From the NCBI GenBank assembly GCA_017415165.1, contig JAFQIY010000037.1:28637-92636 (forward strand): a DNA stretch of 64,000 nt, in the 5' to 3' direction. A model generated the notes under the pieces. The model did not search any database. It was given only the letters and a program-made list of their open reading frames with translations, and was not told the origin of the DNA. Every line of letters begins with the position of its first letter. Position 1 is the first letter of the stretch. The position numbers and the translations under genes are program-made. Positions 827 to 27,753 of the stretch are shown here, piece by piece. The DNA is from Oscillospiraceae bacterium (lineage in GTDB: Bacteria > Bacillota > Clostridia > Oscillospirales > Ruminococcaceae).

Positions 827-3352
827 ATGTCAACAATCCGTGAAACTAACAGAATGGCGGGACTTATGTCAGGTCTCGATACTGAAGAACTCGTAAAGGC
901 GATGTCCGCTAATACCAAGGCTCGTCTCAATTCCCAGAAGCAGAAGCTTCAAAAGCTCGAATGGAAGCAGGAAAGCTACCGTTCTGTAATCTCCAAGGTT
1001 TCTGATTTCAAGTCCAAGTATCTTGATATTCTCGGAGAAAAGTCCATCAAGGCTAATTCCGTTATGAAGAAGTGCACAGCTACTTCTTCCAATGATAAGG
1101 TTATTTCTGCAACAGCTTCTGCAGGTGCTACCGCTGCAAAATATACAATTTCCAAGGCAACAGCTGCAACAGCTGCAAAATTTGATTCCAACGGTGCAAT
1201 TTCAGACGGTGCAGTAAAGCTTGATTTCTCCAAGGCTGAGGCAGGAAAGAGCTATACCGTTGAGCTTAATTTTGACGGCGTAACAAAGAACATTTCCTTT
1301 ACAGCAGGTGCAGATGTCGAAGCTACAAAGAACAGCTTCCTCAATGCCGCAAACAACGCAGTTGCTGATATTACGAATTCCTCACAGCGCTTTGAATTCA
1401 AGGCGGGTACTTCCACCCTTACATTCAACGGCGGAGGCGACGGTGTATACCACACATTCGGCGTAGGTGCAGGTGAGTCTGTAGGTCTTGACTTCAGCAC
1501 TTCCAGCAAGATTACATCTTCCACAAAGCTCAGCGCTATTGATTTCAACGAAACTCTCGTTGCAGGTGCTGACGGCAAGTATAAGTTTACAATCAACGGT
1601 ACTGATTTTGAGGTTGACGGCGATACCACAATCAGCGACCTTATCAATAAGGTTAACAGCTCCGATGCAGGTGTGAAGCTTTCTTTCAGCACTGTAGCAC
1701 AGAGCTTCGAAATCGAAACAAAGGACACAGGCGCTGCTGCTGAAATCAATATGTCACAGTCAAGCGGTAACCTGCTTAACTCCCTTTTCAATATTGATTC
1801 TTCTTCCCTTTCTATCACAAACGCTGATAAGGGTACAATTGAATATACAGAAGTAAACAGCGATTTCAGCACAGCTATTACTTCCGAAATTGCAAACAAG
1901 ATTAAGTACGGCTTCAAGGCTGACGATGCTGAGTCTTCCAAGTATTCTATGAATATCAACATCGACGGTACAGATTATGAGCTTGAGCTTGACCTGAGTG
2001 CTCTCACCAGAAAGGAAGCAAATGAGGACGCTTACACAGATGAAGAAGTTGCAGCAGCTCTCAACGATGCTCTTAAGGCTGCTTATCAGGATAAGACAGG
2101 CACAGAGCTTACAGGTGTTGAATTCGGCTTTGCTGACAATAAGCTTTCTATCAAGTCCGACTCCGCTGTAACCCTCGGCGAGAATGACTTCTACATCGCA
2201 AGCGGCACAACAAACGTTGAAACAAAGAAGGCTGACGCTTCTTACCTTGCAGCTGCAGGCGTTGACTCTATGACATTCAATGTTAACGGCAGCGAAGTTA
2301 CTGTAAATGCAAGCAGCAGCGAAGGTATAAAGATGCAGGACCTCGTTGATGCAGGTGTCGTTACAATCGACAATGCAGGCAACATTACTGCGGCAGCTGA
2401 CGTTGACGGCGTAAGCGCTGAGGCAAAGACTCTCCTTAACGATATTTTCGGCAAGGATACAGGAATTCAGGGTGCTAACGCTACAGATACAATCACAGCT
2501 TACGGAACAAACAGCTCCATTACAGTAAGCAGCGACGGCGAAAACTTTGTAACATATACAAGTGCAACAAATTCCTTCAACTTTGACGGAACAAACATCA
2601 ATCTTTCCAATGCTGAAAGCTTTGAGGCACTTTCGGAAGATGAATACATCACAATCGACACAGCAAGAGATACAAGCGGCATCAAGGACGTTATCGTTAA
2701 GTTTATTGATGATTACAACAAGCTTCTTGATGACCTCTATGACGAGGTAACAACTTCCAGACCAAAGTCCAGCGGCTCTTACTATGACCCTCTTACAGAG
2801 GAACAGAAGGAAGAAATGTCCGAGGACGAAATCAAGAACTGGAACGAAAATGCCAAGAAGGGTCTCCTCTACCGTGATACAAGCGTACAGAGATTCCTTT
2901 CCGATATCAGAGGTGCAATGGCTTCCGCAGTTGACGGTATGACACTCGGCGCTATGGGTATAACTCTGACAGACAGCTGGCAGGACCACGGTAAGCTTGA
3001 AATTGATGAAAGCAAGCTCGACAATGCTATTTCCACATACGGAGATAAGATTGCAGACTTCTTTACTTCTGCAGACGGTCTTGCTGCAAAGCTTGAAAAA
3101 ACTGTTGATAATGCCATTTCCACAAAGACAAACAAGTACGGTTACCTTACTTCTCTCGCAGGTATGGCAAATACCAAGACAGACAAGGATAACCAGATTT
3201 TCAGACAGATGGAGTCCATTCAGGACCTTATCGACAGACTTACAGATAAGTATGAAAGTGAACAGGACAGCTACTGGAATCGCTTTACTGCTCTTGAGAA
3301 GTATATGGCTCAGGCTCAGCAGCAGCAGTCCTACTTTATGCAGGGCTATTAA
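827..3352 (+). CDS. fliD: flagellar hook-associated protein 2 (filament cap) FliD
   Basis: FliD forms the pentameric cap at the filament tip and folds exported flagellin into place. The N-terminus carries the family signature MAGLMSGLDTEELVKAM followed by a heptad-rich helix (about residues 25-75). The C-terminus is a helical region ending in the Gln-rich stretch AQAQQQQSYF. The middle is a long beta-rich, Ser/Thr/Asp/Ala-rich region that includes flagellin-hook-like segments. At 841 residues it is longer than most FliD proteins (commonly about 450-650), so the outer D2/D3 domains look expanded. Codon use is strongly biased (ACA, CTT, AAG), as in highly expressed genes. The ATG at 827 follows GAAAGGCGG. 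fliS and a FlgN-like gene follow at 27- and 12-base gaps. Confidence 0.93.
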   Translation: MSTIRETNRMAGLMSGLDTEELVKAMSANTKARLNSQKQKLQKLEWKQESYRSVISKVSDFKSKYLDILGEKSIKANSVMKKCTATSSNDKVISATASAGATAAKYTISKATAATAAKFDSNGAISDGAVKLDFSKAEAGKSYTVELNFDGVTKNISFTAGADVEATKNSFLNAANNAVADITNSSQRFEFKAGTSTLTFNGGGDGVYHTFGVGAGESVGLDFSTSSKITSSTKLSAIDFNETLVAGADGKYKFTINGTDFEVDGDTTISDLINKVNSSDAGVKLSFSTVAQSFEIETKDTGAAAEINMSQSSGNLLNSLFNIDSSSLSITNADKGTIEYTEVNSDFSTAITSEIANKIKYGFKADDAESSKYSMNINIDGTDYELELDLSALTRKEANEDAYTDEEVAAALNDALKAAYQDKTGTELTGVEFGFADNKLSIKSDSAVTLGENDFYIASGTTNVETKKADASYLAAAGVDSMTFNVNGSEVTVNASSSEGIKMQDLVDAGVVTIDNAGNITAAADVDGVSAEAKTLLNDIFGKDTGIQGANATDTITAYGTNSSITVSSDGENFVTYTSATNSFNFDGTNINLSNAESFEALSEDEYITIDTARDTSGIKDVIVKFIDDYNKLLDDLYDEVTTSRPKSSGSYYDPLTEEQKEEMSEDEIKNWNENAKKGLLYRDTSVQRFLSDIRGAMASAVDGMTLGAMGITLTDSWQDHGKLEIDESKLDNAISTYGDKIADFFTSADGLAAKLEKTVDNAISTKTNKYGYLTSLAGMANTKTDKDNQIFRQMESIQDLIDRLTDKYESEQDSYWNRFTALEKYMAQAQQQQSYFMQGY

Positions 3353-4290: not shown

Positions 4291-4370
<80 letters not shown>

Positions 4371-4384
4371 CGAAAACGGATTGA

Positions 4385-4419
4385 TACGTCATTTGAGTAA
4401 AATCAAGTGACGTATTTTT
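4385..4419 (+). terminator. terminator after tRNA-Arg
   Basis: TACGTCATTTGA (4385-4396) pairs with TCAAGTGACGTA (4403-4414) with one G-T wobble, followed by TTTTT. Confidence 0.85.
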
Positions 4420-4489
4420 ACTTATGTATTAATTTTAACGGTGGAATACTATAGGTGTGAATAAATATTACATATAATACTTATATTGT

Positions 4490-15963: not shown

Positions 15964-16070
15964 AAAAAACAGCCCCTATGGTATAATATTAAGCAACATA
16001 CTGACTTCGCAATTCAAACGGAGTCAGTATGTTGCTTAAAATTTTATATTATACCTTAGATGCTGTTTTT
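15964..16070. repeat. 107-bp nested palindrome between convergent genes
   Basis: Three sets of arms nest: AAAAACAGC / GCTGTTTTT (ends), GGTATAATAT (15980-15989) / ATATTATACC (16046-16055), and AAGCAACATACTGACT (15991-16006) / AGTCAGTATGTTGCTT (16022-16037), all perfect, around a 15-base loop. T runs on both outer sides make it a plausible bidirectional terminator for the converging CotH and Ro-like genes. The size and regularity also resemble a miniature palindromic element. Confidence 0.7.
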
Positions 16071-16124: not shown

Positions 16125-17588
16125 TCAGCTTACTTTGTCATATCTTGTGCTGTAGATTATGTTGTCCATTACGCTTTCGGGGGAGATTTCGCCGTCCTTT
16201 ACCATATCGAAAATTGCGGGAGAAAAGCCTGAAACAAGTGCAGCGCCCGTATCGGAAAAGCTGACGGGAACGTTTTTCTGACGGCTGTTGACGTTCCAGA
16301 AAATCACATCGGGAAGTCTGTAGCCGAAGCGTGCGTACTTGCGCTTCATAAGCTCAAACAGGGTCTGATTGTTGCCGCCCTCAATGCACCAGTCAAATTC
16401 CATATCTGAAATGATGTAGAGCTTGGAGGGAAGCTCGCTTTGGGACACCTTGTTTCTTACTGCGGCGGAGAGGATAAGCTCAAACACTGCTTCAAGGTTG
16501 GTATTTGCAACCTCATTGAAGCGGCTGCAGTAGCTTACCTTTCCTACGATGTCATCGCCCTTTATTTCCACAAGCTGAGGACGCTCGGAGAAGGTGATGA
16601 AGTGATTTGCAAATGTGCCCTTGTTGTGTTCAGCAAAGTAAATGCCAAGCGAAAGTGCAGCGTCAATGGGTCTTACATCGCAGCCGCAGGTCATTGAGCC
16701 TGAGCCGTCAATAACAGCAATGGCGTTGCAGTTTTCCTCGCCGCTTCCGTAGCTGTCAAGGCTTCTCCAAGCCGCATCAAGGGACGCTCTGTCAGCATCT
16801 GTTGTACAGGCAAAAGCCTGTCTTACGATTTCGTAAGGGAAAAGAGCGGAAGCGTGAAGCTTTTCCTCGCCGCTGATAACACGGCTTACAAATTCGTTGT
16901 AGCGTTTGCCGTCGTTGCGGATGAATGCCTTGCGGTACTTGAACATAGCCTTTGAAGGCTGCTTCGAGTAGTCAAAGGTGTAGTCATACTCACGGAGACG
17001 ATTTTCAATGATGTCTATGTAGCTTCTCAGAGAAGCAAGCGTGCGGCGGTAGTCCTTCTCACGCATACCAAGCATTCTGCAAAGCTTTTTAGCCATAGCA
17101 ACGGTTTTGGCGGAGGACGCATTTACTGAGGGAAGCCATTTTGCAAGGAGAGAAACGTTTTCTTTGTTTGCCATAGCTTCAAGGTCGGCGTCAAGAATAC
17201 GGCTGATTTCCTTGACGGCTTCATCAGCACAAGGCGTGTCGAGAAGCACGCAGAGGTCATCGTATCTGCCGTACTCCGCAACAAGGGGAATGTTTCTTTT
17301 TACAGCCTCGGGCGCTACCTTTGCAAGGATTTCCATAGCTGTGCGGAAGAAACGTCTTTCGCCGAGTCCGCCCCTTACGTCACGGGCAAAAAAGATTATC
17401 TTCATTGTCTTTTCGGGGTTTTCGCTGTACGCCTTTATAACAGCGTCCTCTATCTGTTCATTGGTCTGATTACGCATTGCTCCTGCTGTGAAAAACAGGT
17501 CAACGCAGTGTGACATTGATGAACGGTTTGTAAGCGCACCGTTTTCGGTGCACGCAATATTATTTTCAGCTTTAAGCAGGTTAAGCAT
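16125..17588 (-). CDS. Ro60-like TROVE / vWA RNA-binding protein
   Basis: Ro60-type proteins form a HEAT-repeat ring that binds Y RNAs and ends of misfolded RNA, with a vWA domain beside it. This 487-residue protein has the helical part (about 1-290), with family segments such as VDLFFTAGAMRNQTNEQI and FFARDVRGGLGERRFFRTA (DUF2828/TROVE-like), and a C-terminal vWA domain with MIDAS motif AVIDGSGSM. Start ATG 17588 follows AGAAAGGAAG; an upstream ATG in frame lacks this. It is downstream of rtcB on the same strand, separated only by the structured RNA array at 17620-18096, as expected for an RNA-repair operon in which Ro and its RNA are cotranscribed. It is of the DUF2828-like branch, so exact RNA partners must be inferred. 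Confidence 0.85.
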   Translation of the reverse strand: MLNLLKAENNIACTENGALTNRSSMSHCVDLFFTAGAMRNQTNEQIEDAVIKAYSENPEKTMKIIFFARDVRGGLGERRFFRTAMEILAKVAPEAVKRNIPLVAEYGRYDDLCVLLDTPCADEAVKEISRILDADLEAMANKENVSLLAKWLPSVNASSAKTVAMAKKLCRMLGMREKDYRRTLASLRSYIDIIENRLREYDYTFDYSKQPSKAMFKYRKAFIRNDGKRYNEFVSRVISGEEKLHASALFPYEIVRQAFACTTDADRASLDAAWRSLDSYGSGEENCNAIAVIDGSGSMTCGCDVRPIDAALSLGIYFAEHNKGTFANHFITFSERPQLVEIKGDDIVGKVSYCSRFNEVANTNLEAVFELILSAAVRNKVSQSELPSKLYIISDMEFDWCIEGGNNQTLFELMKRKYARFGYRLPDVIFWNVNSRQKNVPVSFSDTGAALVSGFSPAIFDMVKDGEISPESVMDNIIYSTRYDKVS

Positions 17589-17619
17589 TGTAATCTTCCT
17601 TTCTTTCTCAAATAAATAC

Positions 17620-17672
17620 AAGGCGGAGTTTATATGTTACCCAAAAACATCTTCAATTGCTGTAACCGCCTT
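17620..17672 (-). ncRNA. RNA unit 5 of the array
   Basis: AAGGCGG (17672-17666) pairs perfectly with CCGCCTT (17626-17620). ACAGCAAT follows two bases after the 5' arm. Inside is ATGTT-TTTGGGT-AACAT, a 5-bp hairpin with a 7-base loop. It ends 31 bases before the Ro-like gene start and so sits in that gene's leader. Confidence 0.5.
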
Positions 17673-17685
17673 AAAAAATGTGCAC

Positions 17686-17778
17686 GGTGCAATTTAAGTC
17701 GGGATTTGAACCCGAGACATCTACGGAATAACCCGTAAATGCGATATGCCTCATCACATAAACATTGCTGTTTGCACC
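17686..17778 (-). ncRNA. tRNA-like RNA (unit 4) with a true T-arm
   Basis: The closing stem GGTGCAA/TTGCACC (7 bp) stands where an acceptor stem would be. A T-arm TCGGG-TTCAAAT-CCCGA (17699-17715) has the invariant TTCAAAT loop, and an anticodon-like arm TACGG/CCGTA closes a 6-base loop. A normal D arm is missing, the T arm is separated from the acceptor strand by six extra bases, and CCA is not encoded, so it is not a decoding tRNA. GTGCACATTTTTT follows, giving a U-rich 3' end. tRNA mimicry is known for YrlA, a bacterial Y RNA found next to rsr (Ro) genes, so a YrlA-like role is the best guess. Confidence 0.65.
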
Positions 17779-18040
17779 ATTCTTCTTTTTCGGAACAAGT
17801 CGCTCATTCACTGAATTTTTCGATGTTAAAGAGTGTGAAGGATTGCTGTATGCGGCTTTTGCGTCCGATAGGTTTTCAAGCGTGTTTTCTTTGACATTCT
17901 CACGGTCATACGCATTTCAGCGTTCTGAAACAATACAAGATTGCCCTGACTTGTGATATATGAGAACCTGCAAATTGAATTGCTGTCTCTGAAAACCGTT
18001 TTATCCAATCCTCACAGACGTTCCGAAATTTGTTTTTATC

Positions 18041-18096
18041 ACGGCTTTGTATTTTTACGATTGACAGTCGTTGATAAATATTGCTGTGAAAGCCGT
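18041..18096 (-). ncRNA. RNA unit 1 of the array
   Basis: ACGGCTTT (18096-18089) pairs perfectly with AAAGCCGT (18048-18041); ACAGCAAT begins one base inside. The interior folds as TATTT..ACGA-CTGTCAA-TCGT..AAATA, again a hairpin with a 7-base loop. It lies 13 bases after the rtcB stop codon. Confidence 0.5.
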
Positions 18097-18109: not shown

Positions 18110-19339
18110 TCAGCCTTTTACAACGCCGACAGTGAAAAGCGTTTTGATTGGTTCAACAAGGTCACGCTGATTAGCCATAACCTGTGTGATATCCTTGTAT
18201 GCGAAGCGTGCCTCCTCGGCAACGTCCGCCTTGTTGTGCTTTGCAAGGATAACGTTCTTTTCTTTAAGGTCACACATAACCTGTTCGGTAGAAAAATTAT
18301 CCAGCGCAGCTGTACGGGAGTAAAGTCTTCCTGCACCGTGAGATGAGGACATAAAGCTTTCGGGATTACCCTTGCCCTTTACAATGTAGCTGTATGAACC
18401 CATTGCTCCGGGGATAATTCCAAGCTCGCCGTCACCTGCGTGTACTGCACCCTTTCTGTGCACCCACACGTTTTTGCCGTAGTGATTTTCAAGTGCGGCA
18501 TAGTTGTGGTGACAGTTTATTTCAGTGGAATATGTTGGCTCTGTGCCTGTGTATTTTACAACATAGCGTGTGAAAATCTCCTTGATTTTGCAGAGCATTG
18601 CCGCTCTGTTTTCGTAGGCGAAGTCCATAGCCAGCTGCATATAGTTAAGGTAGCGTCTGCCCTCGTCTGAGTCGGCTGGCAGGAATGGAAGCTTCCATTC
18701 TGTCGGCACGGAGGAATACCACTTCTCATTCAGCTTATAGGCAAGCTTGTTGAAGTGCTGTCCAACGATGTTGCCGAAATGACGGCTGCCCGAATGAAGC
18801 ATTATACAGCACATTCCGTCCTCGTCCTGCTGAAGCTCAATGAAGTGATTTCCGCCGCCGAGAGTACCAATCTGAAAGTAGCCCTCATCAATCTGCGGAA
18901 GAAGCTCAGCGTCAGCTTCATACTTTGAAAGCTCAGCCTTTGCCCTGTCAAGCACAGCGGATTCCTGCGGCTTTTTGTAATGGTTGAAGCCTGTGGGAAT
19001 GTTGCGGAGGATATCTCCGCATATCGCCTGCACAAGATTTCCGCTGCCTGTTATGGTTTCACGGAGAACTGAAACGGGGACATCCGTCTGTATGAAAGCC
19101 ATTCCGCAGCCGATGTCAACCCCTACGGCATTTGGAATTACCACACCGTCGCAGGCGATTACGCCGCCGATTGGCATACCCTTTCCTGCGTGAGCGTCGG
19201 GCATAAGCGCAACCCACTTATGTATAAAGGGGAGGCGTGAAAGGTTTTCAACCTGTTCAATACATTTTTGCTCAAGTGCCTCAACAGAGGTGTTCCATAT
19301 TTTAATCGGCATAGCACCGTCATTGTTTACAACAAACAT
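18110..19339 (-). CDS. rtcB: RNA-splicing ligase RtcB
   Basis: RtcB joins a 3'-phosphate or 2',3'-cyclic phosphate RNA end to a 5'-OH end using GTP and Mn2+, through a GMP-His intermediate. The 409-residue product has all hallmarks: MPDAHAGKGMPIGGV, NAVGVDIGCGM (metal-binding Asp and Cys), GGGNHFIEL, LHSGSRHFG, and the guanylylated-His region SSHGAGR. ATG 19339 is chosen because GGAG lies ten bases before it; the longer TTG form would abut that site. It shares the strand with the Ro-like gene and diverges from two WYL regulators. A TATACT -10 without a good -35 precedes it, which fits activator-dependent expression. Confidence 0.95.
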   Translation of the reverse strand: MFVVNNDGAMPIKIWNTSVEALEQKCIEQVENLSRLPFIHKWVALMPDAHAGKGMPIGGVIACDGVVIPNAVGVDIGCGMAFIQTDVPVSVLRETITGSGNLVQAICGDILRNIPTGFNHYKKPQESAVLDRAKAELSKYEADAELLPQIDEGYFQIGTLGGGNHFIELQQDEDGMCCIMLHSGSRHFGNIVGQHFNKLAYKLNEKWYSSVPTEWKLPFLPADSDEGRRYLNYMQLAMDFAYENRAAMLCKIKEIFTRYVVKYTGTEPTYSTEINCHHNYAALENHYGKNVWVHRKGAVHAGDGELGIIPGAMGSYSYIVKGKGNPESFMSSSHGAGRLYSRTAALDNFSTEQVMCDLKEKNVILAKHNKADVAEEARFAYKDITQVMANQRDLVEPIKTLFTVGVVKG

Positions 19340-19507
19340 TTCTGACAACTCCTTTTTGATGTTTCGTGTTTTGCGGTATGTTCAGAGTATATCACCCTGC
19401 AAGGAAAAAATCATTTAAAAAAATCTGCGAACATTTCCAAAGGTATTGCCATTGAAATTTTTTTCTGCTATTATAATTGTATTGAAAAAAGAAGGGAAGT
19501 GAATATC

Positions 19508-20761
19508 GTGGCAGGCTTTTCCGAGCTGATAAAAAGCTTTGACAAGACAAGGGATTACGTCCGTGATTTCTTTATTTACGGCTGTAAGGTGAGAAATGAT
19601 TTTCAGGCAAAAAGCAGCCGTACCTATGACGATGAAAAGCGTCGTGTGGAAAGCTGGCTGGGGGACTATATACACACCGACAATTCTCAGCGCGGCAAAA
19701 AGGTTTGTATATCCGTTGACAGCGGACATATCAGCGAAAATCCGCTTTACAAGGCATATTACTCAAAAAGCTTTACCGACAACGATATAAAGCTTCATTT
19801 CCTTTTGACAGACATTCTTGCTGACGGCGAGAGCCTGACCCTGAAAGAGCTTGTCAACCGTCTTGCTGACGATTACGGCGAGCTTTTCGATGAGCAGACC
19901 GTCCGCAACAAGCTTAAAGAATACGCCGATGAGGGTGTGTTTGTCAAGGAAAAACAGGGCAAAACCGATTATTTCAGGCTCTCCGAGGATACCGCGGAAA
20001 GCTTTTTTAATGAGTACGCAGGACTGGACAACGCTGTGAAATTTGCGTCCGAGGCAGGAAATTTCGGCGTTGTGGGCAACAGTCTGCTTAAATCGGCAGG
20101 ACTGAAAAACGATATCATTCTGAACAAGCACAATTATATTGTACATACCCTTGAGGACGAGGTTATGCTTGATATTGTTTCGGCAATTGATGAAAAACGC
20201 TTTATAACCTTCGAAAGCTTCGGTAAAAACCGTGAGGGAAAGACGTTTGAATACAGCGGTGTGCCGTTCAGAATTCTTTCCTCAATGCAGACGGGCAGAC
20301 GTTATCTTACAATGTACAACTACGAATACCGCCGCTACAATTCGGTGCGTCTTGACAGCATAAAGTCCGTAAAGCAGGGTGAGATTTGTCCCGATTATGA
20401 TGAAATGCTTGCCCTGTATCTGAAAAATGAGCAGAAATGCTTCGGTGTGTCATTCGGAAGAAGAACCGAGCTTGGGCACGTTGAGCCGATAAAGCTTACG
20501 ATATTTGCTGACGAAAAAACGGAGGACTACATCATCAACCGTCTTGAACGCGAAAAGCGGTGCGGCACGGTGGAGCACGTTTCCGAAAACACCTTCGTAT
20601 TCAGTGCTGACGTTTTTGACCCGAATGAAATTATGCAGTGGGCGAAAAGCTTTATAGGGCGGATAATTTCCGTTGAGGGCGGCAGTGAGGAAATCCGTAA
20701 TAAATTTTACAATGACATAGAAAGAATGAACAGGATGTATTGCGATGAAAAGGAAGATTAA
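19508..20761 (+). CDS. WYL-domain protein, first of a pair
   Basis: WYL domains bind nucleic acid or nucleotide ligands and usually form transcription factors with an HTH. The 417-residue protein has a winged-helix-like part (about 95-160, LTLKELVNRLADDYGELFDEQTVRNKL), and a C-terminal WYL region with FESFGKNREGKTFEYSGVPFRIL and RRYLTMYNYEYRRYNSVRLDSI. GTG at 19508 is preferred: GAAGGGAAG ends nine bases before. It is divergent from rtcB across a 168-base gap and overlaps the second WYL gene by 17 bases. Inference: it controls the RtcB/Ro operon in response to damaged RNA or a cyclic-phosphate end, in place of the RtcR activator of proteobacteria. Confidence 0.8.
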   Translation: MAGFSELIKSFDKTRDYVRDFFIYGCKVRNDFQAKSSRTYDDEKRRVESWLGDYIHTDNSQRGKKVCISVDSGHISENPLYKAYYSKSFTDNDIKLHFLLTDILADGESLTLKELVNRLADDYGELFDEQTVRNKLKEYADEGVFVKEKQGKTDYFRLSEDTAESFFNEYAGLDNAVKFASEAGNFGVVGNSLLKSAGLKNDIILNKHNYIVHTLEDEVMLDIVSAIDEKRFITFESFGKNREGKTFEYSGVPFRILSSMQTGRRYLTMYNYEYRRYNSVRLDSIKSVKQGEICPDYDEMLALYLKNEQKCFGVSFGRRTELGHVEPIKLTIFADEKTEDYIINRLEREKRCGTVEHVSENTFVFSADVFDPNEIMQWAKSFIGRIISVEGGSEEIRNKFYNDIERMNRMYCDEKED

Positions 20762-21734
20762 TATTTTCAGCGAGCTGTACGGTGCATATTACCGCACGGC
20801 GGCGAAAATTCTTGCAGAAGATGAAATAACCGAAAGCGGTATCTACAGTATAATTTCAGAGGAGGCATTTGCCGACTCGGCTTTGTTCATACCGCAGAAG
20901 CTTATTCCCAAAAACGGTGTTTCCGATTGGGGACTTATCAAGGCTTGCGACGGAAAAAGCTTTGCTTCTGTATTGAAGCACAAGCCCCGCAGCGCTGCGA
21001 CGGAGCTTCATAAACGTTGGCTGAGAGCTCAGCTTGCCGACCCGAAATTCAGGCTTTTTCTTGATGATGAGGTTTGTGCAAGGCTGGAGAAACGGCTTGA
21101 AGGTGTAAAGCCGCTGTATAAAAGCGAAATTTTCAGAAGTGCAGACGTTTTCAGCGACGGCGACCCTTACACAGATGAAAATTACATAAAGAATTTCCGC
21201 AGGATTGTGTCTGCGATTACTTCAAGGGAAGTGCTGGACATTGAATTTCTTTCGGGGAAAAATGAACGGAAGCGTGGGCATTTTCTTCCCTTGCGGCTTG
21301 AATATTCACGAAAGAATGACAAGTTCAGGGTGTATTGTGCGGCGTATCGTGACCGTCATTGGAGCAACGGGCTGATTAATCTGGGCAGGGTTATTTCCGC
21401 AGCAGGTACTGAATATAAGTCCGTATATGAAGCGGATATGGAGCAGTATTTTTCACAGCGCAGGTGCGTTGAGCCTGTTACTGTGGAGGTTACTCCTGAG
21501 CGAAACGGCGTGGAGCGTTTTATGATGGAGTTTGCAACCTATGAGAAATACACGGAACGTGATTTGGAAACAGGCGTGTGCACGGTCAAGCTGTGGTATG
21601 ACAGGGCTGACGAAACGGAGCTGCTTATCAGACTGCTCAGCTTCGGACCTGTGATTGAGATAAAATCACCGCAAAGCTTCCGCAGACTTGCGGCAGAGCG
21701 TGTAAAAAGACAGAATGAGCTGCTCAGGCTGTAA
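20745..21734 (+). CDS. WYL-domain protein, second of a pair
   Basis: A 329-residue protein whose middle and C-terminus form a WYL-like region (REVLDIEFLSGKNERKRGHFLPLRLEYSRKNDKFRVYCAAYR, described in pieces: VLDIEFLSG and FLPLRLEYS). It has a C-terminal WCX-like extension (VEVTPERNGVERFMMEF...VKLWYDRADETELLIRLLSFGPVIEI). No strong N-terminal HTH can be seen, so it may act as partner of the preceding WYL protein, which it overlaps by 17 bases (translational coupling). Its target is likely the divergent rtcB-Ro unit, by position only. Confidence 0.78.
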   Translation: MKRKINIFSELYGAYYRTAAKILAEDEITESGIYSIISEEAFADSALFIPQKLIPKNGVSDWGLIKACDGKSFASVLKHKPRSAATELHKRWLRAQLADPKFRLFLDDEVCARLEKRLEGVKPLYKSEIFRSADVFSDGDPYTDENYIKNFRRIVSAITSREVLDIEFLSGKNERKRGHFLPLRLEYSRKNDKFRVYCAAYRDRHWSNGLINLGRVISAAGTEYKSVYEADMEQYFSQRRCVEPVTVEVTPERNGVERFMMEFATYEKYTERDLETGVCTVKLWYDRADETELLIRLLSFGPVIEIKSPQSFRRLAAERVKRQNELLRL

Positions 21735-24970: not shown

Positions 24971-26476
<1,506 letters not shown>

Positions 26477-26592
26477 TCATAAATATATTTCTATTAGAAT
26501 ATCACTTTACCGCCCTTTAGTCAAGTAATAATTAATGAACAGGCAGTTAGAAAAATATCAAGTTTTGCGGTGTAATTTTGTGCATTTCTTCA

Positions 26593-27753
26593 CTACCCGA
26601 TTTTACCGCTTTCCTTCAGCAGGTTATACAGTGTAGGTTCAAAGGAAAATTCCTTCATCAGGTTCTCGGCTTCTTCAAGATACTGCTCACGTCCGCGGGG
26701 ATTTCCGCTTCGTTTCACGGCACGGATAAGGATATTTTTCGGAGTATGCTCAAAGTCCACGAATTCCAGCAGCTGAGTTTTGTAGCCGCAGTATTCCAGC
26801 AGATTTGCACGGATAGCGTCCGTACAAAGTGCCGCAGTACGCTCCTTGATTATGCCGTAGCGTGTCAGAAGTGAAAGCTTGTCCGACTTCATCTGTGAGT
26901 TAAGCTCGTGCTGACAGCAGGGGACGGAAAAAATCATATCAGCGTTGCGCATTATTGCATTGTGCAAAGCGTAGTCCGTAGCCGTGTCGCAGGCGTGAAG
27001 CGTAACAACCATATCAACCTTGCCCTGTACGGAAGCGCCGCTGATGTCACCCATCTCAAAACGCAGATTTTTGTATCCGTATCTTTCGGCAGCAGCATTG
27101 CACTTTTCGATTACATCGGCTTTCAGGTCAAGACCCAGCATATCAACCTCCGTGCCGAGAATTTCAGTGAAATAGTGGTACAGCACAAAGGTAAGATAGG
27201 ATTTTCCACAGCCGAAATCCACGATTTTCAGCTTTTTTCCCGACAGACCCTTTTCACGCACAGCATCGTCAATAATCTCCGTGAAGCGGTTAATCTGACG
27301 GAACTTGTCATACATAGGCTTTGCAACCTTGCCGTCCTTTGTGAAAACGCCCATATCCACAAGCGCAGGGAATGGCTTGTCCTCAGGGATAATATAGTTT
27401 TTCTTACGGTTATGGGTCTGTTCCGCAGGTACATCGACAGCAGCTGTTTTCTTCTTGTTGAAAAGCACCTTACCCTTTTTTGTAACGGAAAGTGCATATT
27501 CGTAATTTTCACCCCAGCCATTCAGCTGACCATAGCCGTCATTGAAGAAGTCCACGCACTTTTCAGACGCCTCCTCAGCTGTAAGGTTTTCGTGGAACAC
27601 CTGCTTTTCGGTGTATTTTTCAAGCTGATAGCCGCTGTTCTTTTTCAGTATGCATAGCTTGCGGTACTCAGCATTTTTCGGCGGCTTGCTTATAATTATT
27701 CTTGTGGGATTATCCCCGAAAACAGTATCAAGAAATGTGTTTATTTCGCTCAT
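26593..27753 (-). CDS. SAM-dependent methyltransferase, class I
   Basis: Cytosolic methyltransferase of 386 residues. The Rossmann SAM site is KLKIVDFGCGKSYLTFVLY (about 180-200), followed by VDMLGLDLK, MGDIS and VVTLHACDTATDYAL. The SVPCCQHE motif marks the 'methyltransferase domain 32' group related to eukaryotic GSTCD/METTL25 proteins. The N-terminal 150 residues, including a positively charged region, may bind RNA. Start at ATG 27753, preceded by CTGGAGAAAA; the longer ORF begins without a ribosome site. The substrate is unknown, and RNA is an inference from the relatives. Confidence 0.82.
   Translation of the reverse strand: MSEINTFLDTVFGDNPTRIIISKPPKNAEYRKLCILKKNSGYQLEKYTEKQVFHENLTAEEASEKCVDFFNDGYGQLNGWGENYEYALSVTKKGKVLFNKKKTAAVDVPAEQTHNRKKNYIIPEDKPFPALVDMGVFTKDGKVAKPMYDKFRQINRFTEIIDDAVREKGLSGKKLKIVDFGCGKSYLTFVLYHYFTEILGTEVDMLGLDLKADVIEKCNAAAERYGYKNLRFEMGDISGASVQGKVDMVVTLHACDTATDYALHNAIMRNADMIFSVPCCQHELNSQMKSDKLSLLTRYGIIKERTAALCTDAIRANLLEYCGYKTQLLEFVDFEHTPKNILIRAVKRSGNPRGREQYLEEAENLMKEFSFEPTLYNLLKESGKIG

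Follow-up and report, generated by a model that had tools for sequence, protein, structure and literature searches.

Arrays of predicted tRNA-mimicking RNAs on a common handle beside DUF2828 Ro-like genes of gut Clostridia and phages

Background

An array of five short repeated units fills the interval between a gene for the RNA ligase RtcB and a gene for a Ro-like protein in a 64,000-nucleotide stretch of the genome of an Oscillospiraceae bacterium (assembly GCA_017415165.1, contig JAFQIY010000037.1, positions 28,637 to 92,636; this whole stretch is called the window below), on the coding strand of both genes. An earlier note on this DNA had proposed that structured, Ro-associated RNAs form a family with several copies here, marked by an octamer that occurs five times, only on the strand of the two genes. 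The five copies of ACAGCAAT are confirmed (17656-17663, 17764-17771, 17842-17849, 17979-17986 and 18080-18087, all on the minus strand and none in the array on the opposite strand), and in the whole window, both strands together, the octamer was found 12 times against 3.5 +- 1.8 expected, a number that none of 100 shuffled sequences reached (maximum 10). The units, whose extents are redrawn here from those in the note, and the genes that enclose them are:

18110..19348, minus strand: rtcB, RNA ligase (PF01139, E 2e-110)
18040..18096, minus strand: unit 1, handle ACGGCTT/AAGCCGT followed by G; Asp-like anticodon hairpin, ACGACTGTCAATCGT at 18057-18071
17901..17999, minus strand: unit 2, irregular, probable ends ACGG...CCGTG, motif at 17979-17986, from direct reading
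17796..17858, minus strand: unit 3, handle AAGCCGC/GCGACTT followed by G, one mismatch in 7; core unclassified
17683..17780, minus strand: unit 4, tRNA-like, handle ATGGTGC/GCACCGT followed by G
17741..17757, minus strand: D-arm-like part of unit 4
17719..17740, minus strand: variable arm of unit 4
17699..17715, minus strand: T-arm of unit 4
17619..17672, minus strand: unit 5, handle AAGGCGG/CCGCCTT followed by G; Pro-like anticodon hairpin at 17634-17650
16125..17591, minus strand: Ro-like protein of 488 residues, DUF2828 and DUF7788 (PF11443, E 1.7e-34; PF25043, E 4.5e-44)

A scan of the window with Rfam gave one true tRNA as the sole match and nothing at threshold in the array, where a sensitive scan returned three matches, all at chance level. 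We compared the array with those of 80 bacterial loci (the best 80 of at least 571 confirmed homologous stretches in species genomes), 80 viral loci and 11 named phages; L-numbers are the locus labels of this analysis.

Results

A handle shared by units beside DUF2828 genes

In the bacterial relatives the units follow one plan, in which a closing stem of 7 base pairs (bp) is followed by exactly 2 nucleotides (nt), the motif ACAGCAR, a core of variable sequence, the 3' strand of the stem and a G, a fixed geometry that replaces the earlier placement of the octamer at 0-12 bases inside the 5' arm of a helix. In the 900 nt upstream of the Ro-like gene, ACAGCAA was found 213 times in the sense and once in the antisense orientation, in 72 of the 80 loci. 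Among 290 ACAGCAR motifs within 1000 nt, 222 are preceded by an exact 7-bp stem that ends exactly 2 nt upstream, compared with 34 of 290 when the 3' arm was sought in another locus, and a G stands directly after the 3' arm in 221 of the 222 exact-stem units. A finder that permits G-U pairs and single mismatches returned 357 units in 90 loci, with 36 on the reverse strand and with 28 of 118, 21 of 96 and 16 of 105 sites for three other letter patterns; a strict finder that requires the trailing G returned 284 sense units against 7 antisense (517 motif sites, 80 loci). Filters for motif, trailing G, score and distance kept 308 of the 357 units, in 88 loci and with 300 distinct cores, and the number of high-confidence units per bacterial locus ranges from 0 to 7, with none in 2 of the 80.

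As read from these sequences, the handle is tied to DUF2828. Searched over 150 whole genomes of relatives, the handle pattern gave 5 hits, each 22-610 nt upstream of a DUF2828 gene, and the controls gave one hit (backward pattern) and hits in one genome (scrambled motif), both without DUF2828. DUF2828 is present in 13 of the 150 genomes, the window's own included; 8 of the 13, and with them the window, escape the pattern, since it prescribes a core length and some of the stem. At L025 a stretch of ~294 nt with a handle-like motif is found in two near-identical tandem copies, ~580 and 290 nt upstream of the DUF2828 gene, which suggests unit duplication.

The octamer and the stems, whose presence in homologous loci the earlier note had made a check of its proposal, are thus kept there, and the family stands as a multi-copy one. 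Of the three perfect closing stems reported in the window, those of units 1 and 5 are exact over 7 bp in the consensus register (that of unit 1 extendable to 8, with the gap of 2 and the G present), and that of unit 4 contains one G-U pair in this register. The stem of unit 2 is ambiguous, the unit finder having picked a different one, and its counterparts in both sister species carry the variant motif GCAGCAAT. Counterparts of all five units are present in both sister species; units 2 and 3, which had been suspected of decay, are recognisable in both, which argues against fresh decay. The core of unit 5 is identical to one in L029, and the middle arm of unit 4 differs completely between the window and the two sister species. 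At the exact coordinates the folding z-scores of units 1-5 are -1.94, -2.10, 0.20, -5.14 and -0.89; as stable a fold was reached by 0 of 200 shuffles for unit 4, a clear result, and by 4 of 200 each for units 1 and 2, a moderate one, and the array as a whole is more stably folded than 98 of 100 shuffles.

Cores that imitate tRNA

The cores are enriched in hairpins with loops of 7 nt, of which 120 were found in the 300 bacterial cores against a shuffle mean of 32.8 (maximum 42). Loops of 6 nt are raised too (59 against 32.5, maximum 44) and those of 4 nt slightly (63 against 49.3, maximum 69), other sizes being near background. The position equivalent to U33 is U in 84 of the 120 seven-nucleotide loops, compared with 388 of 1312 in shuffles. 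Loops identical to one of the 28 distinct anticodon loops of the host's own tRNAs, on stems of at least 4 bp, are present in 34 of the 300 cores (0.82 in shuffles, maximum 3; 1 in reverse complements), and in 50 against 2.84 when tRNA loops of viral arrays are added to the set. The host loops found include those of Phe (10), Lys (5), Leu (5), Asp (4) and Glu (3), and the Asn and Pro loops match tRNAs of viral contigs. In a test that makes no selection on pairing, 47 of the 76 copies of a host loop or of CTGTCAA inside cores have a stem of at least 4 bp around them, compared with 66 of 1550 and 42 of 1468 elsewhere on the two strands of these loci, true tRNAs included.

Two of the window units belong here: the earlier note had seen hairpins with 7-base loops in three units, and in units 1 and 5 such loops are anticodon-like. 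The loop of unit 1, CUGUCAA, is Asp-like (the host tRNA-Asp loop is CUGUCAC) and recurs in 15 distinct cores, 13 of which have at least 4 bp flanking it; the loop of unit 5, UUUGGGU, is that of tRNA-Pro(UGG) of viral tRNAs (UUUGGGA in the host), and the hairpin appears when this unit is folded to minimum energy.

T-arms were detected in 68 of the 308 units, compared with 1.45 in mononucleotide shuffles and 6 in reverse complements, and 134 of the 300 bacterial cores contain either a T-arm or a 7-nt hairpin with U33 (shuffles 11.3, maximum 22). In units with the arms in canonical order the handle occupies the place of the acceptor stem. Another order, T-arm, acceptor hairpin and D-arm inside the handle, which is a circular permutation, was found in L057, L070, L073, L074 and L080, and permuted D, T and acceptor arms occur also in EFDG1, wV8 and Faith1; they are absent from most units. 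The tRNA-like units lack a usable acceptor end or anticodon. Unit 4, reported by ARAGORN at 17691-17763 as tRNA-??? with an anticodon that could not be read, has the D-like and T arms and no acceptor hairpin, and it is not a functional tRNA with acceptor stem and readable anticodon. The letters of the sarcin-ricin loop, sought in the cores, were not found there.

Covariation and differences in the anticodon

Compensatory changes, which the note had asked for, were found among 13 distinct units of the CTGTCAA class (16 rows, 3 duplicates dropped), where 10 of 12 pairs show double changes. The covariation score is 0.691, against 0.215 +- 0.035 in shuffles and at most 0.146 when slid; the handle helix of this set was picked by pairing and the anticodon helix by loop letters only (86.2% of cells paired). 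Several cores also have identical 5-bp stems and differ at position 34 of the loop: Lys UUU (L031, L033) and Asn GUU (L078), Lys (L044) and Asn (L053), Glu UUC (L043, L047) and Asp GUC (L050), and, where the stems alone were compared, Leu UAA (L051) and Phe GAA (L078). The two Lys/Asn sets and the Glu/Asp set look like whole-length versions of one unit with the anticodon switched. Among 200 pairs with near-identical stems the loops are identical in 43, and differences at positions 32, 34, 35, 36 and 38 number 82, 92, 98, 73 and 91, with few (13) at position 37, loops having been selected with position 33 fixed and purines only at 37; with this spread over the loop, position 34 does not stand out in the set taken together.

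Viruses carry the same arrays

Relatives of DUF2828 were found in 493 stretches of viral contigs and in 682 of 50,697 phage records. Handle units are present in 50 of the 80 viral loci, with 98 distinct cores (antisense control 2), and 79 of the 156 motif copies in the upstream regions have no exact stem. The viral cores resemble the bacterial ones, with 39 hairpins of 7-nt loop against 15.3 (maximum 28), 25 with U33 against 4.5, and 13 exact tRNA loops against 0.17, of which the commonest is Lys(UUU), in 6 of 22 rows, three of which share a stem. One uniform criterion detects sense units in 9 of the 11 named DUF2828 phages (23 in all, with 3 antisense) and none in Synechococcus phage B23 or Aeromonas phage Ah1; B23 shows weak candidates under a laxer rule. 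In phages the handles lie upstream, downstream and permuted around the DUF2828 gene. The viral contigs L145 and L157 encode tRNA bodies of 112-121 nt that score above the Rfam tRNA threshold and bear a permuted handle at the anticodon arm (with an inexact stem in L157). Of 8 permuted handles whose loop measures 3-5 nt, 6 retain the G within that hairpin loop.

In Listeria phage CKA15 (OR088597) the homologue CKA15_055 was detected in purified virions (20 peptides, 57.1% coverage), so that the ribonucleoprotein may be packaged, and three abundant noncoding regions up to 2 kb upstream of CKA15_055 were guessed to be Y RNAs, according to PMC12282133. We find three handle units between CKA15_055 and CKA15_056, near 25.3-25.6 kb. 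The same paper cites Chen 2014 for Y RNAs of mycobacteriophages, some of which carry DUF2828.

Other structured RNAs were noticed at these loci. L088, a contig of a bacterial metagenome-assembled genome, has a ROOL RNA within a tRNA array at 2677-3251, ~1.7 kb upstream of the DUF2828 gene. Viral contigs with DUF2828 arrays gave Rfam hits to permuted tmRNA and wcaG RNA (L184 6509-6665, L174 10903-11005, L149 10257-10362), the permuted-tmRNA hit of L184 lying roughly 1 kb beyond the handle units without overlap. In Synechococcus phage B23 (L201) a 110-nt 'tRNA-OTHER' is annotated near the DUF2828 gene at 4366-4475 and is possibly another tRNA with an extra element.

A Ro60-like fold outside the TROVE family

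The earlier note had called the gene Ro-like and spoken of rtcB-TROVE loci, which holds only in part. The protein does not match Pfam TROVE (PF05731), which has no match anywhere in the genome, and NCBIfam and PADLOC gave none for it at E <= 0.01; its predicted fold, however, comprises a helical-repeat ring part and a vWA domain, as in Ro60, and has its best PDB matches in Ro60/TROVE structures. The DxSxS residues of the vWA domain, D295, S297 and S299, are invariant in 12 sequences. A sequence search of PDB with the DUF2828 profile returned no match at E <= 1, so this kinship is visible by fold comparison only. DUF2828, a domain of unknown function, would accordingly be linked to the Ro60 fold by structure prediction.

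The motif is rare at the 14 TROVE loci examined, with 7 sense copies and 1 antisense, and the strict finder made 3 sense calls and 1 antisense, none of them convincing, with flanks shorter than 1 kb at four of the 14. In the viral set a single TROVE protein found nothing and a TROVE alignment found 4 loci. Three Bacillota RNAs linked to TROVE genes combine a permuted tRNA body with an Asn-like anticodon hairpin and are closed by a different stem:

L190, 2430-2660, minus strand: TROVE-linked RNA, loop CTGTTAA
L192, 150-370, plus strand: TROVE-linked RNA, loop CTGTTAA
L189, 2440-2640, minus strand: TROVE-linked RNA, loop TTGTTAA

Two of them have [AG]CAGCAA 9 or 21 nt before the closing stem, which is not the handle arrangement.

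YrlA (RF02553, threshold 69 bits) has no match in the window's own genome, and in none of 16 genomes and records did the model pass its cut-off, the best score being 43.2 bits at EFDG1. Matches below threshold coincide with permuted units (EFDG1 43.2, G026/L023 30.1 and Faith1 21.7 bits) and lie near TROVE genes (39.9, 39.8 and 27.9 bits); they are weak evidence, because the model has further hits in those genomes and also matches 9 of 14 control genomes.

Linkage to RtcB and putative control of the operon

RtcB is encoded in 43 of the 80 bacterial loci: 28 have the kind found in the window, located upstream, and 15 a second kind, ~30% identical, which is downstream in 12; contig ends truncate some. 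In phages P100 and CKA15 a tRNA splicing ligase is annotated near the DUF2828 gene. On the other side of rtcB the window has the following features:

19417..19432, minus strand: promoter element GTTCGCAGATTTTTTT, conserved among relatives
19499..20761, plus strand: WYL-domain regulator 1, divergent (PADLOC WYL, E 2.8e-9)
20745..21734, plus strand: WYL/WCX regulator 2, divergent (PADLOC WYL, E 1.5e-13)

Pfam and NCBIfam searches gave no match for regulator 1, and the WCX score of regulator 2, 20.5 bits, is under the cut-off of 23.9. Homologues of regulators 1 and 2 were found in 57 and 53 of the 80 loci, respectively. The promoter element is present in 44 of the 80 loci, never in antisense, and 25 nt separate it from a -10-like hexamer in 34 of the 38 sites that have one; in the window the same spacing leads to TATACT at 19386-19391, in an element not picked up by a general promoter scan. 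The WYL proteins may bind this element. Directly 3' of the DUF2828 gene, at 15980-16056, a long inverted repeat has its arms around GGTATAATATTAAGCAACATACTGAC and is perhaps a terminator or a small repeat element.

Discussion

We consider it fairly probable that these loci encode a Ro-like ribonucleoprotein and RNA-repair operon with an array of small noncoding RNAs, which would serve as tRNA decoys or adaptors on a common handle. The WYL regulators would turn the operon on upon RNA or DNA damage; the units would be made as RNAs, and the DUF2828 protein probably grips the handle that they share; the exchangeable cores would be shown as decoys or lures to tRNA-attacking or tRNA-processing enzymes, chiefly anticodon nucleases, and RtcB would reseal the tRNAs that had been cut. 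A role as decoy or lure for such nucleases agrees with anticodon loops that resemble those of real tRNAs and sit on a common handle, near a Ro-like gene and in many loci also an RNA ligase gene. Our more specific proposal, that the DUF2828 loci of gut Clostridia and of many phages hold an evolving repertoire of anticodon decoys, in which replicas of loops on a Ro-binding handle soak up or report anticodon nucleases and RtcB mends the tRNAs, is a tentative one, to which we give somewhat less than even chances.

Several observations weigh against this interpretation. Neither a T-arm nor a 7-nt hairpin with U33 is present in 166 of the 300 bacterial and 61 of the 98 viral cores, units 3 and 5 of the window fold no better than shuffles (111 and 37 of 200 folding as well), and the minimum-energy fold of unit 1, computed from the single sequence, does not contain its anticodon hairpin, the loop of which, CUGUCAA, matches exactly no loop of the tRNAs listed. 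In a control with 60 heptamers of permuted letters, some copies of which overlap real units, 0.64 stem hits per copy were obtained over seven gaps, compared with 1.5 for the real motif. RtcB was not found in 37 of the 80 bacterial loci, though many flanks are short, and the Asn-like hairpins of the TROVE-linked RNAs mean that anticodon mimicry is not confined to DUF2828. The expression support from CKA15 is suggestive only, because the highly transcribed region at 26,236-26,727, the one compared by its printed coordinates, has no handle and the units lie elsewhere.

The same data can be arranged differently. The units may be adaptors of YrlA type, whose cores bring a nuclease (PNPase, for instance) or another tRNA-binding enzyme to the Ro-like protein, where RNA would be degraded or checked, and do not act as decoys; the Ro60-like predicted fold, the sub-threshold YrlA matches at permuted units and the precedent of Rsr, Y RNA and PNPase, as described in the portions of PMC7790460 and PMC8394870 consulted, speak for it, but it leaves the many bare and diverse anticodon hairpins and the differences at position 34 unexplained when taken alone, and we regard it as rather unlikely. 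That the mimics are damage sensors, cut by tRNA nucleases to give fragments that signal to the WYL regulators, would agree with the WYL pair and the fixed promoter element beside the array and with the activation of the Salmonella operon by tRNA fragments, reported in the same portions of PMC8394870 and PMC7790460; but phages share the array, and the phage annotation tables examined name no WYL gene (many genes are hypothetical, and CKA15_054 is annotated as a transcriptional regulator). In our judgement this reading is improbable.

Readings as circular RNAs, as cis elements and as decayed repeats were also weighed and ranked low. The earlier note had considered the units as RtcB substrates, in which case they would be circularised, the handle joining their ends. 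The handle stem places the ends side by side, one design occurs in circularly permuted versions and RtcB is linked in the loci counted above, but the permutants are encoded in the DNA and the G remains inside the hairpin loop of most permuted handles with short loops (3-5 nt), from which it follows that this G is not an end left by ligation; we give this reading very little weight. We think it just as hard to believe that the units are cis elements of the operon mRNA, involved in processing or attenuation and yielding no separate RNA product: the array does lie between genes, and a consensus scan found no terminator-like site on its minus strand, but handles are found on either side of the phage gene and permuted around it, and identity to tRNA loops would not be expected.

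Should the preferred interpretation of the units as decoys be true, the array would be guide-like, the copied anticodon being the specificity of each unit, in conflicts between phages and hosts and with toxins. For many of these RNAs the sequence itself reveals, loop by loop, what is imitated, which bears on the role of bacterial Y RNAs and on the adjacency of Ro and RNA ligase genes, and the vague idea of 'RNA quality control' can be replaced by testable pairs of mimic and target tRNA; the handle sequence also serves to find such RNAs in other phages. The papers on DUF2828 that we located are, by their titles, on plants only, and neither the handle nor the anticodon mimics are described in the literature searched, which included PMC7790460, PMC7824862, PMC8394870, PMC12282133, PMC11455837 and PMC12714340, and outside the scope of which are Chen 2014, Wang 2018, Sim and Wolin 2018, Sim 2020, and Burroughs and Aravind 2016.

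Comparison with known systems

A close parallel to the proposed conflict is phage T5, which, according to PMC11455837, escapes the PARIS nuclease that cuts tRNA-Lys by means of a tRNA-Lys changed in the anticodon stem-loop. In both cases phages encode tRNA-like genes, and the anticodon loop, the battleground for T5, would be so here too, but many of the DUF2828-unit mimics keep unchanged loops, on a common handle, which suits a bait rather than a resistant replacement. The rsr-yrlBA-rtcBA operon of Salmonella likewise brings together a Ro-like gene, tRNA-mimic RNAs and rtcB, a linkage to RtcB that the window shares, but the DUF2828 operon stands beside a divergent WYL pair. Compared with TROVE/Ro60 (PF05731), the window protein has its best PDB fold matches there, with the same helical part and vWA domain with DxSxS, but it belongs to DUF2828/DUF7788.

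The earlier note had found the units unlike known Y RNA layouts, and this holds for the small anticodon-hairpin units, but not for the permuted-tRNA members, which resemble YrlA. Like YrlA and other bacterial Y RNAs, the DUF2828 units are encoded beside a protein of Ro60-type predicted fold and have paired ends in a stem that covaries, by which they may bind the protein as bacterial Y RNAs bind Ro60/Rsr; some units also contain a tRNA-like body, in places circularly permuted, and RtcB stands nearby in some systems. On the other hand, the handle of the DUF2828 units is another, highly conserved one (ACAGCAA, 2-nt gap, 3' G), their loci hold up to 7 high-confidence units, many of them bare anticodon hairpins, and they score below the Rfam threshold. 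The permuted members are YrlA-like; the difference lies in the handle and in the units that are bare anticodon hairpins.
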